NCBI RefSeq assembly: GCF_000300815.1
Contig: NZ_AMRX01000006.1
Coordinates: 372,001-436,000 of the forward strand
Reading direction: 5' to 3'
Source: Gayadomonas joobiniege G7
Lineage (GTDB): Bacteria > Pseudomonadota > Gammaproteobacteria > Enterobacterales > Alteromonadaceae
DNA: 64,000 nt
The notes under the pieces were generated by a model. It searched no databases. It was given only the letters and a program-made list of their open reading frames with translations, and had not been told where the DNA came from. How positions within the stretch are numbered: the stretch's first letter is position 1; every line of letters starts with the position of its first letter. A program made the translations under genes and the position numbers. Below are positions 962 through 64,000 of the stretch, piece after piece.

Positions 962-1006
962 TCGCATTTTTAACAACCGATCCCGCGCCAATCTTATCGA
1001 CTGGCG

Positions 1007-1033
1007 GTTGGCACCGCCAACGGCGTTGCCAAC
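1007..1033. repeat. REP-like hairpin downstream of gnd
   Basis: An inverted repeat GTTGGC...GCCAAC with a GC-rich centre, directly after gnd. It is a variant of the hairpin family found at about 1.88, 51.45, 53.42 and 60-63 kb. The 962-1155 gap also holds a diverged copy (near 1074) of the ATGTCCAGTGTCAACCG motif that recurs at 2181 and 2324. No gene is supported in this gap. Confidence 0.6.
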
Positions 1034-1155
1034 AAGTCGCAAACGCTCGCGGCGTTCGCAAAACAGTGCGCTATGTCCAGCGTCAACCGTATCTCTCGGT
1101 CTTGTTTGCTGCCCATCTATACGCAACTAATCAAGTTGTTGGCAAAATTGTTTAA

Positions 1156-1689
1156 TTAATGCTGCCACTCTTGTTCTAAAAACTCAGCGTTACCGTTTTC
1201 GAGTTTTACTTCATATTTGGCTTCGTTACCCGAATCATCTCGTGTATAAAATTCATAGATGACTTCGCCTGTGGTTTGTTCACTTTCGATAATACGTTTG
1301 GCTTTGATGTTTGGGTATTTAGCTTGCAGGGCCTCAACGACCTTTTGCGGAGTTTCTTGTATCCTTAGGTCACGTTGGATCTCAACAATTTCCCATTGAC
1401 CATCCCGCAACATCATATCAAATTCTATCTCATTGCCATTTTTGTCCAAACCTTCAATGTCGATGTAGGTATTACCATGTTTAAATTCTTTTTCGGCTTC
1501 TTTAGGTGTAAAACCTGGCCGTGCTTGTTTAATTACTTCTTTAGCTTGTGCAGGGATCTCTTCCAGCGTGAGTTCAACCTTTTCGTGTAAGCTCGCACCT
1601 ATTTGTTCCTGATCAGTACATGAGGCAAAAGTGGTCATTGCAACAGAGACTAATAATACCGACTGTAATGATTTCATGTTAGCTTTCAT
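1156..1689 (-). CDS. PepSY-like domain lipoprotein
   Basis: A predicted envelope lipoprotein of 177 residues. The start at 1689 was chosen because AGGAG (1695-1699, minus strand) lies 5 nt upstream and the protein then begins with a compact lipoprotein signal peptide ending in FASC (Cys24 as lipidation site). An upstream in-frame Met at 1743 would put a poor extension before the signal. The rest shows two repeat-like segments of the PepSY type: 'EIPAQAKEVIKQARPGF' followed by a strand-rich stretch, then 'TPQKVVEALQAKYPNIKA' followed by another. PepSY-like domains of this kind are periplasmic and of unclear biochemical role; protease inhibition or ligand binding has been proposed. It stands alone between repeat-bearing gaps, so context adds nothing. 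Confidence 0.7.
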   Translation of the reverse strand: MKANMKSLQSVLLVSVAMTTFASCTDQEQIGASLHEKVELTLEEIPAQAKEVIKQARPGFTPKEAEKEFKHGNTYIDIEGLDKNGNEIEFDMMLRDGQWEIVEIQRDLRIQETPQKVVEALQAKYPNIKAKRIIESEQTTGEVIYEFYTRDDSGNEAKYEVKLENGNAEFLEQEWQH

Positions 1690-1881
1690 TTTAACTCCTG
1701 TATTAACATTGATTTTAAATTGTTTTACAAAATGGTAGATCAAAATTCAATTAATAGCTACATATTGTCAATCAATAAATGATTACTGGAGTAAAAATAA
1801 AAGAAATTGCCCGTCACTGACGACGTCGTGCACTATGCTGATCGCACTGTCGGTAATTTCCTCAAAAAGCCGCAAACGTAG

Positions 1882-1908
1882 GTTGGCTCCGCCAACGGCG
1901 TTGCCAAC
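1882..1908. repeat. REP-like hairpin
   Basis: Inverted repeat GTTGGC...GCCAAC preceded by GTAG (GTAGGTTGGCTCC...). This is the same head-plus-hairpin layout as the GTAGGTCGGCTCC elements at 53.4 and 60-63 kb, with T for C at one stem position and the compensating change on the other arm. Confidence 0.65.
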
Positions 1909-2176
1909 AAGCCGATCACCGCCGTAGGCGTTGGCGACATTTCCGAAATAGTCAATTCGATTGTTTTTAGCCGATGGGCAATAGTCTCGCGCGAGCCGGT
2001 TTAATGTCGATAAGGTTGGCGCTGGATCGTTTGCGAGAAATGCGTCACCAGCAAGGAGGCTGGTGTCGAGCCTATAGGGGCGAAGTTTGCAAAACTGAGC
2101 GCGCAAGCAGGAGCTGAAGCCGGGCTTAAGCGAGGATAAGATATCCGAAGCTTAAGGGTTTACGGCGTCATTTGGA

Positions 2177-2392
2177 GTAAATGTCCAGTGTCAACCGCGG
2201 CCACGAGCGCGCATAGGGTTGCGCATGGTTGTTCGTCGATCAATGCAGGTTCAGCGGTGTTTGCAGTTGTTCGCAACGCCTGCGGCGGTGCGCACCTACG
2301 CTTTTCTGCGGCTTTTGACGTAAATGTCCAGTGTCAACCGCGGCAACGAGCGTGTTTGTGACTTGTCGCCAACGCCTGCGGCGGTGGGCGAC
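2177..2392. repeat. Tandem duplication with 143-bp period
   Basis: The sequence GTAAATGTCCAGTGTCAACC occurs at 2177 and again at 2320, exactly 143 bp apart. Each copy is followed by CGCGGC(C/A)ACGAGCG and later by a hairpin of the AACGCCTGCGGCGGTG type ending in ACCTACG (2269-2295 and 2365-2392). So two copies of a composite unit (conserved leader plus REP-like hairpin) lie in tandem; the second hairpin, GTCGCC...GGCGAC, belongs to the second hairpin class of this window. Confidence 0.65.
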
Positions 2393-2451
2393 CTACGAAA
2401 GACGTGAGTCGTAAGCCAATACCTCAAGGCAGGGCCTGATCTTGGGGGAGC

Positions 2452-51443: not shown

Positions 51444-51506
51444 GTCGGCTGCGCCTTCGGCGTAGCCGACCTACTGTAGGTTGCCACCGCCGCAGGCGTT
51501 GGCAAC
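51444..51506. repeat. Pair of REP-like hairpins
   Basis: Two hairpins in opposite orientation: GTCGGC...GCCGAC (51444-51470) and GTTGCC...GGCAAC (51480-51506). Between them CCTAC TGTAGG supplies a GTAG head to each, in divergent orientation, so the unit resembles a bacterial interspersed mosaic element. It lies in the 336-bp gap between sohB and the GntR gene, which otherwise contains only the short tandem repeat at 51510 and A+T-rich DNA. Confidence 0.7.
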
Positions 51507-51509
51507 AAT

Positions 51510-51540
51510 GAGCAAACGAGCAAACGAGCAAACGAGCAAC
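51510..51540. repeat. 8-bp tandem repeat, about 3.9 copies
   Basis: GAGCAAAC repeated three times then GAGCAAC, directly after the REP-like pair. A simple-sequence tract outside any gene that could vary in copy number by slippage. The same GAGCAAAC motif, in reverse (GTTTGCTC), occurs in the repeats at 53505 and 60354, suggesting the tract grew from the repeat family. Confidence 0.75.
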
Positions 51541-51709
51541 TTGGTTGTTTTAACCGCAGATCACGCAAACAATGGCCAGATAATTTAAACAAAAAATAAA
51601 ATATATCGCACATAAAGTGTCAGATTCATGTAAAGCATACAAATATCAGTATATAAAATTAATTGTTCACAATTAAATGATCTCAATATTAAGGCGGATA
51701 TAAAAAAAT

Positions 51710-52369
51710 ATGGCTGATATTAATGATGTTTCGACATTTTTCTCAGACGATAACAGTGTCTATACCAAACTATTGATGGATATCTCACAAGGCATTTTTA
51801 AAAGTGGTGACCGCTTAGTCACAACAAAATTGTCAGAGCGATATGGTACCAGTGTAAACCCAGTGCGTGAAGCAATAAAACAATTGCAAGGCCAAGGTTT
51901 TGTGAACGTTTTAAAAAACAGCGGAGCGCGTGTTAAAAAGTTTGAATACAAACACATGCGAGATGTGTTTGAGATTATCCAATTATTAGAACCATATTTG
52001 ATTTCTTATTTTATTAATCAACACACCGAAGAAGATTTGCAAGCGTTAAAAAATATTCACCAAAATATATGCCAACTTACACCAGATGAATACCAAAATT
52101 ACGCGACACTGGATGCAGAGTTCCATTGGACAATGTACCGCAACCATTATAATAAAAGTGCGGTTGAAACATGGCGTAGCCATAAGATCATTTCACAAGC
52201 GCTACATGCAAATATGAAAATAAATCGAGTACGCTTAGTTTCTTCGACACGAGAGCATGGACGCTTAATCGAATGCCTCGAACAGGGAAATGCGCAAGGG
52301 GCAAAAGCGGCGCTAATTGAGCACATTAATAATAGCGGCGACTATTGGTTAAGTGCAGTGGAGCAATAA
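51710..52369 (+). CDS. GntR-family regulator, FCD (FadR-like) domain
   Basis: A 219-residue transcription factor. N-terminal winged helix-turn-helix: LLMDISQGIFKSGDRLVTTKLSERYGTSVNPVREA is split as helix-turn-helix with RYGTSVNPVREAIKQLQ as recognition region. The C-terminal all-helical FCD domain (DVFEIIQLLEPYLISYF, LDAEFHWTMYRNHY and ALIEHINNSGDYW) normally binds an organic acid, often with a metal held by Asp/His residues. Convergent with the GH16 gene (49 nt apart); a regulatory tie to polysaccharide use is possible but unproven. Confidence 0.88.
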   Translation: MADINDVSTFFSDDNSVYTKLLMDISQGIFKSGDRLVTTKLSERYGTSVNPVREAIKQLQGQGFVNVLKNSGARVKKFEYKHMRDVFEIIQLLEPYLISYFINQHTEEDLQALKNIHQNICQLTPDEYQNYATLDAEFHWTMYRNHYNKSAVETWRSHKIISQALHANMKINRVRLVSSTREHGRLIECLEQGNAQGAKAALIEHINNSGDYWLSAVEQ

Positions 52370-52417
52370 AAACATCCACCGCGAAGCAAGCAGCCGCCAC
52401 AAATATTTTTGAATAAA

Positions 52418-53323
52418 TTATTCAACCGGCACTAACTGATACGCTCGGACCCATTCTACCTGCATGGCATTTGAGCCATCGGTGGTTTCTAATTCGGCTT
52501 TAGAAGGGGTTCCGGGTGAACCATTGCCCCAGTTCCAAATTTCGGTATCAAAAAACATCACCATAGGTTCGTTAAATTCGGCAGGAAAACTTAATTTATC
52601 CCAAGTTTTGCCGTCGGCGTTCCAATATGAAAAATCAGTCACTCGTTTGCCATCTAAATAGATATAGGCTTCTTTATTATTTTTCCACCAAATACCATAA
52701 GTATGCCAACTGTCTGCAACACCCCCTGGGATACCGCTTTTATTTGCTGACGGCCCTTGTGCGTAGCCTGGTTTTCCAAAGCCGTTTGGAAAATAATGAT
52801 AATTGCTATGCAACTTTGTACTAAATGAATCGGCATGTCCGCCTTGCGGGCGACCAATTGCTTCGATAACATCGATTTCGCTGTATTTTCCCTGCATCCA
52901 AAAAGACGAAGTGGTTGCTAATTGAGAGGCGCGCATTTTTACTTCGTAATAGCCGTAACTTAGTCGCTCTTTTGAAGCTACAACCGAGGTGCCAACCCAT
53001 TTTTTTTCGCTGGGACCATTCGCTTTAGCATAAAGAAAAAGCTTGCTGTTTTTGATCTCTACATTTGGGGTATCTTCTGCGGTGTCACCTTCAACATAAG
53101 CACCAGGTCGGCCTTTGCCTGAGCCATCCCACCAATCGTGTTTGGCCTGCCATTTGTTTGAGTCCCAAGTATCAAATTCATCCGTGAATTGAGGATTTAA
53201 CACCCATTTAAAACCATCCGGTGCCTCTGGCAATGCCTGAAATTTATCTCCCCACTCATACGCGCCTGCATAACTAGAAACCAGCGCAGCACCGACCAAA
53301 GCTAAATTGAAAACTTTATTCAT
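52418..53323 (-). CDS. Secreted GH16 glycanase, agarase/porphyranase type
   Basis: A 301-residue extracellular endo-glycanase of family GH16. The signal peptide (NKVFNLALVGAALVSSYAGA) is cut near residue 21. The GH16 active site ExDxxE is EIDVIE: nucleophile Glu149, Asp151, acid/base Glu154. TDEFDTWDSNKWQ, LSYGYYEVKMRAS and DTEIWNWGNGSPGTPSKAEL fit the agarase/porphyranase subgroup better than laminarinase. There is no carbohydrate-binding module or sorting tail. The ATG at 53323 begins the signal; red-algal galactan is the probable substrate, but agar versus porphyran is unresolved. Confidence 0.9.
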   Translation of the reverse strand: MNKVFNLALVGAALVSSYAGAYEWGDKFQALPEAPDGFKWVLNPQFTDEFDTWDSNKWQAKHDWWDGSGKGRPGAYVEGDTAEDTPNVEIKNSKLFLYAKANGPSEKKWVGTSVVASKERLSYGYYEVKMRASQLATTSSFWMQGKYSEIDVIEAIGRPQGGHADSFSTKLHSNYHYFPNGFGKPGYAQGPSANKSGIPGGVADSWHTYGIWWKNNKEAYIYLDGKRVTDFSYWNADGKTWDKLSFPAEFNEPMVMFFDTEIWNWGNGSPGTPSKAELETTDGSNAMQVEWVRAYQLVPVE

Positions 53324-53416
53324 AAGACATCCAAAATTACAAAAACTGAGCGTAAGATATAACACTTAATTTAAATAAGCAACATGTTGTTTATATATAA
53401 ACAGTGAGGGGTAGTA

Positions 53417-53690
53417 GTAGGTCGGCTCCGCCAACGGCGCAGCCGACATTCCGCAAACATCGCCGATGTTTAAACAATTCGCGAATAAAACAACCACAGT
53501 AACCGTTTGCTCATTGTCGCCAACACCTTTGGTGGTATCTACACGAAACTTCAAACATCGCGCTATAGTGTAGGTCGGCTCCGCCAACGGCGCAGCCGAC
53601 ATTCCGCAAACACCGCCGATGTTTAAACAATTCGCGAATAAAACAACCATAGCAACCGTTTGCTCATTGTCGCCAACACCGCCATCAGCG
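53417..53690. repeat. Tandem REP-bearing repeat with 153-bp period
   Basis: GTAGGTCGGCTCCGCC begins at 53417 and again at 53570. Each copy carries a GTCGGC...GCCGAC hairpin (53421-53447 and 53574-53600), then TTCGCGAATAAAACAACCA, GTTTGCTCATTGTCGCC, and in the first copy the second hairpin class (GTCGCCAACACC TTT GGTGGT). Copy two ends early near 53690. Only a few bases differ between copies. It fills most of the gap between the GH16 and rlmKL genes. Confidence 0.8.
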
Positions 53691-59937: not shown

Positions 59938-60114
59938 ATGAAAAGACAAAAGCGTGATCGTTTAGAAAGAGCCCAGTCAAAAGGTTATCAAGCCGGTATT
60001 TCTGGTAAAGCTAAAGACAGTTGTCCATATCAGGAAACTGATACCCGAGCGCAGTGGCTAGGTGGATATCGAAGTGCTGTTGACGATAGAGTCTCGTTTT
60101 TTGGAGGAAGATAA
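59938..60114 (+). CDS. rmf: Ribosome modulation factor
   Basis: Stationary-phase protein that dimerises 70S ribosomes into inactive 100S particles. 58 residues, very basic: KRQKRDRLERAQSKGYQAG, then KDSCPYQ and AQWLGGYRSA, which are the invariant RMF segments. AAGGA lies 8 nt before the ATG. It follows the DUF3466 terminator, so it is probably a single-gene unit, as in Vibrio and Shewanella. The repeat island begins about 140 bp beyond. Confidence 0.95.
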   Translation: MKRQKRDRLERAQSKGYQAGISGKAKDSCPYQETDTRAQWLGGYRSAVDDRVSFFGGR

Positions 60115-60251
60115 ATAATCAGGGTAAACCTGAGTTGGCACCGCTCAAGCGTTGCCAACACCCTGTAGCCTCAGCCTTGTAGTTTAACTCCCCTCACTAG
60201 CATTTTTACCAATTCAAATTTCCCAATTCAAAACGCCAATAATGCGTGAAG

Positions 60252-60690
60252 GTCTACTCCGCCAATTGTAGGTCGGCTCCACCGATAGGTGCAGCCGACA
60301 TTTTGCAAACACCGCCATTGTTTGCATGTTTCGCGAATAAAACAACCACCACAATCGTTTGCTCATCGTCGCCAACACCTTTGGTGGTGGCGACCTACAC
60401 GAAACTTCAAACATCGCGCTATAGTGTAGGTCAGCTCCGCCAATTGTAGGTCGGCTCCACCGATAGGTGCAGCCGACATTTTGCAAACACCGCCATTGTT
60501 TGCATGTTTCGCGAATAAAACAACCACCACAATCGTTTGCTCATCGTCGCCAACACCTTTGGTGGTGGCGACCTACACGAAACTTCAAACATCGCGCTAT
60601 AGTGTAGGTCAGCTCCGCCAATTGTAGGTCGGCTCCACCGATAGGTGCAGCCGACATTTTGCAAACACCACCATTGTTCTTGGGGTTTGC
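60252..60690. repeat. Tandem REP-bearing repeat with 178-bp period, about 2.5 copies
   Basis: GTAGGTCGGCTCCACCGATA occurs with its hairpin at 60272-60299, 60450-60477 and 60628-60655, exactly 178 bp apart. Between successive copies lie TTCGCGAATAAAACAACCAC, a GTCGCC...GGCGAC hairpin followed by CTAC (60368-60394, 60546-60572), and GTAGGTCAGCTCCGCCAATT. Copies are almost identical, so amplification is recent. Open frames here are by-products of the repeats. This fills most of the rmf-to-transposase gap of about 690 bp. Confidence 0.9.
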
Positions 60691-60808
60691 GCAAAAACAA
60701 CCACCGCAATTGCCTGCAAAGCTCACAAATAAAATAAGCTACACAGCGACCGTATAATTGCACTAAATGTAAAATAAACTATACTTTTTTAATTTATTCT
60801 GGACACTT

Positions 60809-61312
60809 TTGATGCGATACCGACGACTAAGAATTAAAGGTGGAACATACTTTTTTACACTGGCTGTTTCCGATCGTTCGACGAATTTATTAACCAACAA
60901 TATACAAATTCTCAGAGAATCTTGGCGAAGATGCCTAAAAAAACACCCGTTTACAACAGTTGCTGTGGTGATAATGCCTGAGCATTTGCATGCTATTTGG
61001 GAGCTCCCCGAAAACGACTATGACTATTCAACTCGTTGGCGGTTGATCAAAAAACATTTTTCCAACTTAATAGGGCATCCAAAACTTTGGCAAAAAAGGT
61101 TTTGGGAGCATACGATTCGATACCAGATAGATCTAAATAATCATATAAATTACATACACTTTAATCCGGTTAAACACGGATATGTTGAGCGAGCAGTAGA
61201 TTGGCCGTATTCCAGTATTCACAAATATATTCGCGATGGTGTTATCAGTAAAAACTGGGGAACCAGCGACAAATCATTCGCCTATTTAAACGATTTGTCA
61301 GCAAACGAATAA
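60809..61312 (+). CDS. REP-associated tyrosine transposase (RAYT, Y1/HUH family)
   Basis: A 167-residue single-copy-type transposase of the IS200/IS605-related Y1 family. The metal-binding HxH is His58-His60 in MPEHLHAIWELPEN, and the probable nucleophile is Tyr114 in NYIHFNPVKHGYV; WPYSSIHKYI is the usual C-terminal mark of RAYTs. There are no insertion-sequence ends of its own. It is flanked on both sides by GTAG-headed hairpins, the DNA class RAYTs bind and cleave. RAYTs are normally vertically inherited and spread REP sequences in trans. Confidence 0.93.
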   Translation: MMRYRRLRIKGGTYFFTLAVSDRSTNLLTNNIQILRESWRRCLKKHPFTTVAVVIMPEHLHAIWELPENDYDYSTRWRLIKKHFSNLIGHPKLWQKRFWEHTIRYQIDLNNHINYIHFNPVKHGYVERAVDWPYSSIHKYIRDGVISKNWGTSDKSFAYLNDLSANE

Positions 61313-61339
61313 AACAACCACCCTTATTGCCTGCATATT

Positions 61340-61475
61340 GTCACCAACACCTGCGGTGGTGGCGGATTGTTGGAAACGCCGTTGGCGGTTCCAACCTACA
61401 AAAACTTCAACAAAGAGATATAAGGTCGGTTCTGCCCATCGTAGGTCGGCTCCACCGATAGGTGCAGCCGACAAC
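61340..61475. repeat. REP-like cluster downstream of the RAYT gene
   Basis: Contains a GTCACC...GGTGGTGGCGGA half element, a GTTGGAA...TTCCAAC hairpin (61369-61395) followed by CTAC, and a GTAG-headed GTCGGC...GCCGAC hairpin at 61445-61472 identical in its arms to those at 60272, 60450 and 60628. The rest of this 268-bp gap leads into the antitoxin gene promoter. Confidence 0.8.
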
Positions 61476-61580
61476 CTTTCAAATCCCAAATGAAACTATA
61501 AATTAAATTTGTTTTATTTGGGATTGAACTATCCGGCCACTCTGCTAATCTTAAAGATAAGAGCAGCGAGGTAGTCAGTT

Positions 61581-61985
61581 ATGTTAGTTAAACAAAAAGC
61601 ACATCAGATAAAAAACAATGCAGCTATGTCAGAGGCAGGGTTTAAAGCCTGTGTAAATATATTAGAAAAATGGCAATGCAGCGCCGCTCAAATCCAGAAC
61701 ATTCTGCAATTGAGTAAAAATGCTTATTATCGAGCAAAAAAAGATCCCGCGTCAGCCAACTTCAGTCGAGATCAGCTCGAACGTATGAGCATTATCTTAA
61801 ATATTCACGCCGCGCTTAGAGTATTGTTTTCGAACCCTGATAATGTGTATCAGTTTATGTCGATGCAAAACAACAATGTATTTTTTGAAGGAAGAACCCC
61901 ATTGGAGATCATTGAAACTGGCAGTCTAATTAGTTTGTACCAAGTTTATCAACATATAGATACCTTGCGAAATGGCGGTTGGTAA
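61581..61985 (+). CDS. Xre/MbcA/ParS-type antitoxin
   Basis: A 134-residue protein that should neutralise the RES toxin encoded next. The first half is an Xre-like helical DNA-binding domain (WQCSAAQIQNILQLSKNAYYRAKKD); the second is the DUF2384/MbcA-ParS-Xre toxin-binding domain (ERMSIILNIHAALRVLF...FFEGRTPLEIIETG). GAGG lies 11 nt before the ATG. Stop overlaps the toxin start by one base (TAATG), the usual antitoxin-first coupling. It probably represses its own promoter. Confidence 0.9.
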   Translation: MLVKQKAHQIKNNAAMSEAGFKACVNILEKWQCSAAQIQNILQLSKNAYYRAKKDPASANFSRDQLERMSIILNIHAALRVLFSNPDNVYQFMSMQNNNVFFEGRTPLEIIETGSLISLYQVYQHIDTLRNGGW

Positions 61986-62671
61986 TGGCAACCAAGTACA
62001 GCAAAATTACACTAACAGAGCAAATGGGTTACCGTTTAATTAACTCTAAATTTCCTCCAATCGCCATTTTTGATGATGTCGCTAACGCCGATGAATTTGA
62101 GCTTTTATATCAACTACAAGAGTTAACCAACCCAAGATTAAGCGATCAGGTCGGCAATGTTTCACTGTTAGATAAAAGCGAATATCCTTTTGGCATTCAC
62201 GGCTGCTCGTACGCAGTGGCGCCTTTTACTCATATAAATCCGGCCGGTAGCCGTTTTATGTCGGGCGAGCGGGGCATGCTTTATATTGCCGACAGCATAA
62301 AAGCAGCAATTGCAGAATCCATTTATCATCAAGAAAACTATTTTAAAAAGGTTAATTTGCACTACGACCGCATCGTTATGCGGGGTCTGTTATGTGTTTT
62401 TGGCGGTGAGATGGCGGATATTACCCATCTTGCAAACACAGATCCTATTTACGACCCAAACGACTATACTCAGGCAAGAACTTTTGCCGCACCGTTAAAA
62501 CAAACAGTATCAGGCATTCAATATAACTCGGTTAGGCGGCAGGGAAGTATGTGTTGGGGATTATTTACGCCAAAATATGTTAAATCGATTAAACAAAACC
62601 GTCATTACGAATTTATTTTTGAACAAAATAAAATGGCACAGGTGAATCAGTTGACCCAGGTTGATTTTTAA
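61985..62671 (+). CDS. RES-family NAD+-phosphorolase toxin
   Basis: A 228-residue RES-domain protein; characterised members (such as MbcT and other RES toxins) break down NAD+ and halt growth. The family's Arg, Glu and Ser positions are visible in AGSRFMSGERGMLYIADS, AAIAESIYHQE and SVRRQGSMCWGLFTP. ATG 61985 overlaps the antitoxin stop. Located inside the repeat island, so it may be an acquired cassette. No frameshift, and the core appears intact. Confidence 0.9.
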   Translation: MATKYSKITLTEQMGYRLINSKFPPIAIFDDVANADEFELLYQLQELTNPRLSDQVGNVSLLDKSEYPFGIHGCSYAVAPFTHINPAGSRFMSGERGMLYIADSIKAAIAESIYHQENYFKKVNLHYDRIVMRGLLCVFGGEMADITHLANTDPIYDPNDYTQARTFAAPLKQTVSGIQYNSVRRQGSMCWGLFTPKYVKSIKQNRHYEFIFEQNKMAQVNQLTQVDF

Positions 62672-62689
62672 GCAGCCGACAACAGGCAA

Positions 62690-62995
62690 ACACCATCATT
62701 GTTTGTGGGATTTGCGCAAAATTAAACACCGGCGTTGTTTGCAGAATTGTCGCCAACACCTTTGGTGGTGGCGGGTTGTTGGAAACGCCGTTGGCGGTTC
62801 CAACCTACGAAAATTTCAACAACGAGATATAAGGTCGGCTCCATCAATTGTAGGTCGGCTCCGCCGAAGGCGCAGCCGACAATATGCAAACACCACCATT
62901 TTTTGTGGGATTTGCGCAAAATTAATCACCGCAATTGTTTGCAGAATTGTCGCCAACACCTTTGGTGGTGGCGACCTACACCAGTTAGCAGTCGA
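62690..62995. repeat. REP-like cluster downstream of the RES toxin gene
   Basis: Holds a GTCGCC half element and GTTGGAA...TTCCAAC hairpin (near 62777-62803, closely matching 61369-61395), a GTAG-headed GTCGGC...GCCGAC hairpin (62854-62880) and a GTCGCC...GGCGAC hairpin followed by CTAC (62949-62975). Short CACCACCATT/TTGTTTGC spacers are shared with the other islands. It accounts for nearly all of the 362-bp gap before the receptor gene; no gene is supported. Confidence 0.85.
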
Positions 62996-63033
62996 CAATA
63001 TGTAACCACCACCAGTGTTTGCGGGACATAGGG

Positions 63034-64000
63034 TTAGTTAAACTTGTAATTTACCCCGACAGTATATATACGATCAGAATAACTTGAGCGGTCGGTTATT
63101 TGCTGATCTATTCGGTAGTGGTGTAATTTGGTTTTAGTTAAGTTATTAATACTAAAATCAAACTTTAGCTTTTTATTGACTTTGTAATTTGCTGAAAAGT
63201 CGGCCCGAGTCGATGAATCAGAATACAAGGGGTTATTTGCTTCGCCACTTTTGTAATAACTGCTGCGATAGTTTGCTGCCAAGCGAGCGTTAAACTTTCC
63301 TTTGTCGTAAAACACCGAAAAATTGCCCGAGTGTTTAGACATATTTTCAATTGGCAAAATAGAGGTACGATCCTGCAAATCAAAAGCGTCTAACTCACCG
63401 GCAGCGACTAAGGCATCCAGCGCATCACGTTGAGCTTCAAATCCGCCTGCACTAATGCCAAGGGCCGCTAAGTCGAGTGGTACTTCGGTGACCTTATCAA
63501 TAAATACAGGATCAGGTTTGGTGCCATCACTGTACGTATAGTTTGCCGAAAAACCAAAACCATTCCAAAAGTCGGGTAAAAAATCAAGCCACTGAGTGTA
63601 ACCAATTTCTATACCCTGGCGAACAGAGCCTTGGCCATTAAAAGCAGTACGCACACTCCATAACTCGTAACCAGGTTGTGACGAGATGTCCTGACCGACC
63701 AATATATCTTGGCCACTTGCACCACCATTACCTTCAACACCCACCAAATTTGTTCCAGGCTCTGCCGGTACGGCTAATATGCCTTTACGGGTCACTAAAT
63801 CGGCTTCAACTTTGCGATGAAAAAACGCTAAGCTCACCATATTGCCTTTACCCCAATAACGTTCAAAACTTATATCCATGTTGGTAGAGGTTTGTGCCAC
63901 CAGATTTATGTTACCTATATTTGTCCAGCCATTACGAATACCAGGGCAGGTATCAACAATACCTGAATACAAACCGTTACTTAGCGCGTAGTCTTGTGCC
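63034..64000 (-). CDS. TonB-dependent receptor (C-terminal part)
   Basis: Outer-membrane beta-barrel importer that uses the TonB-ExbBD energy system. The frame runs off the window end, so about 322 C-terminal residues are seen; plug domain and start are outside. Barrel strands alternate with loops: DISFERYWGKGNMVSLAFFH, GIEIGYTQWLDFLP, GFGFSANYTYSDGT, FSVFYDKGKFNARLAANY and the final YTVGVNYKFN with a terminal aromatic-polar pattern. This large-loop type is common among carbohydrate receptors of marine Alteromonadales. The specific substrate is unknown; the GH16 glycanase lies about 10 kb away. Confidence 0.93.
   Translation of the reverse strand, partial: AQDYALSNGLYSGIVDTCPGIRNGWTNIGNINLVAQTSTNMDISFERYWGKGNMVSLAFFHRKVEADLVTRKGILAVPAEPGTNLVGVEGNGGASGQDILVGQDISSQPGYELWSVRTAFNGQGSVRQGIEIGYTQWLDFLPDFWNGFGFSANYTYSDGTKPDPVFIDKVTEVPLDLAALGISAGGFEAQRDALDALVAAGELDAFDLQDRTSILPIENMSKHSGNFSVFYDKGKFNARLAANYRSSYYKSGEANNPLYSDSSTRADFSANYKVNKKLKFDFSINNLTKTKLHHYRIDQQITDRSSYSDRIYTVGVNYKFN

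Follow-up and report, generated by a model that had tools for sequence, protein, structure and literature searches.

Do the GTAG-headed hairpins that surround a small transposase-like gene of Gayadomonas joobiniege G7 form a single system with that gene, and how far have they spread from it? The gene and its hairpins lie at positions 60252-62995 of a 64,000-nt stretch of DNA (hereafter the window), which corresponds to positions 372001-436000 of contig NZ_AMRX01000006.1 (C7; a window coordinate equals the contig position minus 372000) in a 3.91-Mb genome of eight contigs. A preliminary description of this sequence proposed a repetitive extragenic palindrome (REP) system with its REP-associated tyrosine transposase (RAYT). 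We conclude that the locus is very probably a REPtron, in which the RAYT gene is surrounded by clustered dimorphic REP hairpins that belong to it. Systems of this kind are already known, and the present one adds a good new example to them.

The protein bears out the proposed REP/RAYT assignment. It matches the NCBIfam equivalog model NF047646 (REP_Tyr_transpos, REP-associated tyrosine transposase) at 170.5 bits against a cut-off of 80, and the structure of Escherichia coli TnpAREP (4er8_A) at E 1e-45 with residues 2-152 of the protein aligned; a Pfam search of the protein gave no match at 0.001. The described Y1/HUH protein of 167 residues is real and carries the HLH motif at residue 58, but it has 166 residues from the ATG at 60812, the longer form starting from a TTG at 60809. 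Using a residue register counted by hand from the 4er8 alignment, we found that the protein keeps the catalytic tyrosine (Y114, corresponding to Y115 in E. coli), the HUH motif and the helper asparagine (N118; N119 in E. coli), as well as the GTAG-contact and bulge-contact residues of E. coli TnpAREP, with K81, W93, Q94, E99, H100 and R103 aligned to K82, W94, Q95, E100, H101 and R104. The roles of the E. coli residues follow PMC8266576 and PMC6006769. G160 and E161 of the E. coli C-terminal tail fall outside the aligned region. Because the catalytic and contact residues are kept, cleavage of the local hairpins by this RAYT is likely.

A covariance model built from the GTAG-headed hairpins (R1) detects 11 hairpins within 60252-62995 (Table 1). 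Five of them are of the GTCGGCTCC type on the plus strand and three of the GTCGCCACC type on the minus strand, so the two classes described on both sides of the protein exist at the positions given for them; however, there are more than two stems, as a third, unlisted one, GTTGGAACC, occurs in two copies on the minus strand. With 2 mismatches allowed, the first hairpin pattern has 15 real matches versus a mean of 0.33 in shuffles of the window, and the second pattern, with 3 mismatches allowed, has 3 real matches versus none. Folding of three single hairpins as single-stranded DNA (ssDNA) gave z-scores of -5.0, -4.6 and -4.1. An Rfam scan over 60000-63200 returned nothing at the gathering score. 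The RAYT gene is bracketed by inverted REPs (60624 on the plus and 61369 on the minus strand, of the T and A types defined below), with further hairpins on both sides. Upstream of the gene there is a 178-bp direct repeat in two full copies that are 98% identical, and the 59 nt that begin in the last codons of the gene recur at 80% identity in the inter-REP spacers of these upstream units (60334-60392 and 60512-60570).

A scan of C7:280-680 kb for GTAG followed by 12-nt arms yielded 53 hairpins, of which 48 start with GTAGGT, versus 17 in the reversed sequence and 8, 8 and 18 in three Markov sequences (one strand counted, doubled). The 26 distinct GTAGGT forms align in a common build of GTAG, 7 base pairs, a C.Y mismatch, 4 base pairs and a 3-4-nt loop. 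The 5' base of the mismatch is C in 24 forms and its 3' base is C or T in 25; the proportion of paired cells (99.3% of 286 stem cells) is biased upward by the scan, which requires pairing. Compensating changes on both sides are present at six of the 11 stem pairs, and the stem covariation of 0.429 (0.152 when shuffled) was not reached in any of 500 shuffles. Since the build is common and the stem changes compensate each other, the hairpin classes are stem variants of a single architecture. The hairpins have the properties of group 2 GTAG REPs: a GTAG head, an imperfect palindrome and a mid-stem mismatch.

Two types are distinguished by their arms, the T type ending in TCC, mostly opposite GCA, and the A type ending in ACC opposite GTT. 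A script labelled 63 of the 70 hairpins of C7 (24 T, 39 A), and the remaining seven were labelled by eye (one T, six A). The hairpins form 13 outward-facing dimers of 104-161 bp, ten of them of 125-131 bp, and T is paired with A in 12 of them; three of the 13 rest on eye-corrected labels. There are also two tandem arrays, one of seven GTTTGCACC units with a 51-bp period at 448.6 kb and one of five GTTGGAACC units with a 58-bp period at 449.8 kb.

The preliminary description regarded two hairpin classes with one RAYT as notable, which does not hold against the known systems: the Y and Z REPs of E. coli are alike in this respect, and REPs have already been categorized as dimorphic in the literature (Nunvar et al. 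2010, PMC2817692). The E. coli RAYT gene yafM is flanked by Y and Z2 REPs (PMC2817692, PMC8266576), and its single enzyme acts on y, z1 and z2 REPs, whose upper stem and loop are free to vary and in which C/T is enriched at the enzyme-contacted bulge base (PMC8266576). Complementary REP stem changes and dimers have been catalogued as well (PMC3733652). The present system thus resembles that of E. coli in its related enzyme, in its imperfect GTAG palindromes with a mid-stem bulge, in the occurrence of more than one REP type as inverted dimers and in the bacterial interspersed mosaic elements (BIMEs) flanking the RAYT; it differs in having one C.Y mismatch in place of an AA/GC bulge, in its stem letters and in the concentration of copies near the RAYT. 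It shares with the REP doublets forming hairpins (REPINs) of Pseudomonas fluorescens SBW25 the inverted REP pair as the likely unit and the tandem clusters, whereas the SBW25 copies are far more numerous and genome-wide (PMC3116915).

From these features we infer that the RAYT protein binds, cleaves and mobilizes the hairpins and made their copies. On single-stranded DNA, probably during replication, the enzyme would recognize a hairpin by its GTAG head, its folded stem and its unpaired C.Y bulge; its tyrosine would cut beside the hairpin, and rejoining of the ends would copy or move the T/A pairs (REPINs or BIMEs). Stem letters would be free to change while pairing holds, which would explain how many stem sequences occur with one enzyme. 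New copies would have landed mostly near the RAYT gene and between genes.

The distribution of the hairpins in the genome was analyzed with R1 at E <=0.001. The best 150 of 1586 candidates were scored, thus the count of at least 72 hairpins is a lower bound. Seventy of them are on C7, one is on contig C1 and one on contig C4. The C7 hairpins form groups of 4 at 373.0-374.4 kb, 37 at 423.4-453.1 kb, 20 at 494.0-521.7 kb, 6 at 635.3-646.6 kb and 3 at 818.9-819.0 kb. As many as 61 hairpins are found in 149 kb around the RAYT, or 3.8% of the genome; 37 of the 70 on C7 are within 20 kb of the gene and 61 within 100 kb. As the copies are mostly near the RAYT, which is the single match of its family in this genome, their spread looks local rather than genome-wide. 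The comparison of intergenic and coding positions suggested in the preliminary description favors spacers: on C7:280-680 kb, 66 of 67 hairpins are intergenic with respect to open reading frames (ORFs) of >=100 aa, hairpin-overlapping ORFs of <=168 aa being set aside. The exception, hairpin 453037, overlaps a 539-aa ORF at approximately residues 52-62, ahead of its first Pfam domain, which starts at residue 100.

We searched 60 genomes, G. joobiniege included, with R1 under filters stricter than those of the search described above. Any R1 hairpin was found in six of them: G. joobiniege (72), three of the seven congeners (one each in G003 and G005, two in G007; none in G001, G002, G004 and G006), G025 (2) and G057 (6). 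RAYT family matches are present in 41 of the 60 genomes and exceed the cut-off in 15, including G. joobiniege and all seven congeners. All 16 congener RAYT genes over the cut-off were compared; 15 align and are at most 51% identical to the G. joobiniege RAYT, and the G002 RAYT gave no match to it at 1e-5. Therefore the hairpins are not equally common in relatives without this RAYT, the outcome that the preliminary description had set against its own proposal: there are 72 here versus 0-2 in seven congeners, different species that lack a close homologue.

The few hairpins of G005 and G025 and one of those of G007 lie within about 0.6 kb of a RAYT, and that of G003 within 5 kb. The hairpin family adjacent to a G007 RAYT has 13 copies in G007, 7 of them within 14 kb of that RAYT, and 0 copies in G. 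joobiniege. Among 84,980 species genomes, 153 RAYT relatives were found, of which 80 were kept (38-54% identical to the G. joobiniege protein). At 30 of these 80 loci, 35 GTAG hairpins were counted in 82 kb close to the gene versus 10 in 233 kb farther away, and hairpins of this general build occur near the RAYT in 13 loci. This pattern in relatives fits lineage-specific RAYT/REP pairs with local spread, and the case described here is apparently young.

Several observations weigh against the REPtron reading. Hairpin counts per genome are lower bounds, with the best 121-150 candidates scored in each, and the difference between species is inseparable from the difference between RAYTs in the congener comparison. 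One G007 hairpin (46.2 bits) is far from the listed RAYTs of that genome, and the six weak G057 matches are not near the G057 RAYT over the cut-off. By the scan pattern, no near hairpin was found in 17 of the 30 related RAYT loci or at four of the seven distinct congener RAYT loci. Finally, the outlying hairpins at 374 and 819 kb and on C1 and C4, which have other stems, may be older or due to another RAYT.

Local concentration might also have arisen without local spread. In one alternative, a large imported segment brought in both the RAYT and the hairpins, in line with the fact that the G002 stretch compared lacks a counterpart to much of 432-543 kb and that none of seven congeners matches, at E 1e-100, a gene for a 716-aa protein at 497 kb; we consider this unlikely, as hairpins are located in or at the edges of blocks of congener orthologues (423-425, 439-449, 374 and 819 kb) and both the stem and the unit differ between loci. 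The 716-aa protein is a beta-helix protein (C7:496998-499145) with a 62% identical copy at C7:1052508-1054613.

In another alternative, the concentration reflects the replication-terminus region, with its variable gene content and tolerance of insertions, and not nearness to the RAYT. A dif-like site is found at C7:607719, at the GC-skew switch and 175 kb from the RAYT, some hairpins are located beyond it at 635-646 kb, and 63 of the 70 are no more than 200 kb away from it. Nevertheless, the median distance of a hairpin is 18 kb to the RAYT versus 158 kb to the dif-like site, none of the 70 is within 20 kb of that site versus 37 within 20 kb of the RAYT, and the G007 hairpin family is likewise packed around its own RAYT, which makes a terminus effect quite improbable. 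The dif-like site of G002 (G002:C1:3526407) has one difference from that of G. joobiniege, which has six differences from E. coli dif, none of them in the XerD half.

That the hairpins are ordinary terminators or RNA-stabilising structures near the RAYT on which the enzyme does not act is extremely improbable, since, although they are intergenic and strongly folded and occupy spacers between convergent genes in 8 of 25 cases, 3 of the 25 REP-bearing spacers are between divergent genes, a fixed GTAG head and bulge position and outward T/A dimers are not terminator properties, and the copies are packed in 149 kb and nearly absent in congeners.

The orientation of the dimers is uniform within each stretch (424-450, 494-522 and 635-646 kb, one T/T pair apart) and switches between the stretches, which the dif-like site does not explain. 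The outward dimers are T+/A- in six of six cases at 424-450 kb, A+/T- in four of five at 494-520 kb (one is T/T) and T+/A- in two of two at 635-642 kb; the genes flanking them run in either direction. Exceptions in orientation are an inward T-/A+ pair at 423.4 kb, seven A+ hairpins in the 448.6-kb array and a T+ hairpin at 503.2 kb. The exact T-type pattern is on the plus strand up to 449.7 kb and on the minus strand from 494.2 kb. We rejected this strand switch as the terminus, with dif between 449.7 and 494.2 kb, as both the dif-like site and the skew switch map to 607.7 kb. Strand-balanced GC skew at third codon positions is negative at 424-456 kb and again beyond 608 kb, with positive values at 492-606 kb; it follows the T-type orientation, but the sign at 424-456 kb is at odds with the side of dif on which this stretch lies, and the skew of 374-424 kb is weakly negative as well. 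Between two REP-rich stretches, C7:460-490 kb is characterized by low GC content (34-41% per 2 kb), a strong positive skew, genes of >=130 aa that are all on the plus strand and no hairpin match.

REPs are found almost exclusively at breaks in gene order relative to one congener. In G002, G003 and G007, the gene before rmf (430.0-431.7 kb in G. joobiniege) is followed by the reversed counterpart of the 828-819 kb segment, which extends from a FabA gene as far as genes for a 795-aa protein and a HU/IHF-type protein (Pfam names), and then by that of the 374.5-kb segment, directly in G002 and G007 and after three other genes in G003. Both junctions are broken in G. joobiniege. REPs are found there at both 818.9-819.0 kb and 373.0-374.4 kb, and others accompany the RAYT from 432.3 kb onward; no R1 hairpin was found at 828.4 kb, the other end of a broken junction. 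We further compared C7:280-840 kb with 460 kb of one congener, G002. Of the 25 REP-bearing spacers, 12 have an orthologue-bearing neighbour, and the neighbour seen in G002 is kept in none of these (one with a looser gap); among REP-free spacers it is kept in 105-108 of 144, or in 151 of 196 when overlapping genes are included. The p-value of the association ranges from 5.6e-7 to 0.0098 depending on settings. Refusing orthologues of <40% identity removes two of the 12 testable spacers, and the spacer at 448.6 kb becomes intact once a gap of three is tolerated, in which case it is G002 that has the additional genes.

The association is confounded by the position of the REPs in variable DNA and fades in the densest stretch. 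At 405-456 kb it lacks significance, as one of seven REP spacers is intact versus three of five REP-free spacers of >=100 bp (p 0.22) or nine of 15 of any length (p 0.07); at 370-456 kb, p is 0.05 with the length limit and 0.0007 without it. The breaks may be caused or marked by REPs, or REPs may simply persist where the DNA is variable. The lead is uncertain, and it is doubtful that REP clusters are break-and-join points for the chromosome near the RAYT, with REP-bounded segments being exchanged or moved. Such events could proceed via recombination between REP copies or by the cut-and-join activity of the enzyme itself, and could have involved the Xre/RES gene pair between 122-nt repeats, the GntR and GH16 gene pair (both in Table 1) and a 10-kb block at 439.3-449.6 kb, as well as the two ends of the lost junction that are now at 819 and 374 kb. 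Plain recombination between the hairpin copies at 374 and 819 kb is not supported, as the two loci share no stretch of >=70 nt at E 1e-8. Among the matches listed in a literature search on REPs at synteny breaks, only a P. fluorescens paper bears on REPs; in those strains many strain-specific genes are in REP deserts (PMC3390384), rather the reverse of the location of REPs at gene-order breaks seen here.

Other features of the window include the Xre/RES toxin-antitoxin pair, which is directly 3' of the RAYT gene; the only other RES match in the genome is on C1 and is interrupted by one stop. More hairpins occur at 1006-2396, flanked by genes for 6-phosphogluconate dehydrogenase and a class II tRNA synthetase, and at 51444-53600, on both sides of genes for a GntR-type regulator and a GH16-type protein (51710-53365), in place of which G002 and G003 have two other genes. 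A 77-nt non-hairpin repeat (95% identical; C7:438773-438849, 439087-439163 and 374003-374079) is common to REP-bearing spacers located at two gene-order breaks, one at 438-439 kb and the other at 374 kb.

Table 1. Features of the REP/RAYT locus and other hairpin-bearing sites (window coordinates).
Feature	Position	Strand	Evidence
REP hairpin, T type (GTCGGCTCC)	60268..60299	+	covariance model; ssDNA fold z -5.0
REP hairpin, A type (GTCGCCACC); 131-bp outward-facing dimer (REPIN/BIME) with 60268	60368..60398	-	
REP hairpin, T type, second tandem unit	60446..60477	+	
REP hairpin, A type (GTCGCCACC)	60546..60576	-	
REP hairpin, T type, 156 bp upstream of RAYT start codon	60624..60655	+	
RAYT / TnpAREP gene, 166 aa, E. 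coli (group 2) type by kept residues	60812..61312	+	NF047646, 4er8_A
RAYT last codons, stop and downstream sequence; degenerate A-type stem at end	61306..61364	+	repeat
REP hairpin, A type (GTTGGAACC)	61369..61399	-	covariance model; ssDNA fold
REP hairpin, T type	61441..61472	+	
Truncated A-type hairpin without GTAG	62751..62773	-	E 4.9e-4, model positions 7-29
REP hairpin, A type (GTTGGAACC)	62778..62808	-	
REP hairpin, T type	62850..62880	+	
REP hairpin, A type (GTCGCCACC); 130-bp dimer with 62850	62949..62979	-	
Xre/MbcA-type antitoxin gene between REP clusters	61581..61985	+	PF20432 and PF09722 over cut-off
RES-domain toxin gene between REP clusters	61985..62671	+	PF08808, 88.5 bits
122-nt REP-bearing direct repeat, left of Xre/RES pair	61337..61458	.	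partner 62746-62867, 89% identical
122-nt REP-bearing direct repeat, right of Xre/RES pair	62746..62867	.	
Inward-facing T/A hairpin pair, left of GntR + GH16 gene pair	51444..51506	.	
Two T-type hairpins, right of GntR + GH16 gene pair	53417..53600	+	
Four outlying hairpins (1006+, 1878+, 2269-, 2365-) at gene-order break	1006..2396	.	

The closest parallels to the local distribution are marine. In three marine gammaproteobacteria, REPs are gathered within 200 kb of the rayt gene, and, as in G. joobiniege, REP regions extend to at most about 200 kb around the gene and not genome-wide, with dimorphic REPs (Nunvar et al. 2010, PMC2817692). The REPs of the Marinomonas MWYL1 REPtrons Ma and Mb are likewise near their tnpA genes, and Ma has two REP types like the present system (PMC8266576). 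The G. joobiniege system differs from these in species and hairpin letters.

If the link with gene order were upheld, a young RAYT would be a local engine of gene-order change, a role in rearrangement that we did not meet in the part of the literature surveyed. The probable REPtron of G. joobiniege is a compact case that combines a single RAYT with one locally distributed family of hairpins and a clear set of compensating stems, and could serve as a tractable model of how one enzyme tolerates many stems and whether the spread of REPs begins beside the gene.

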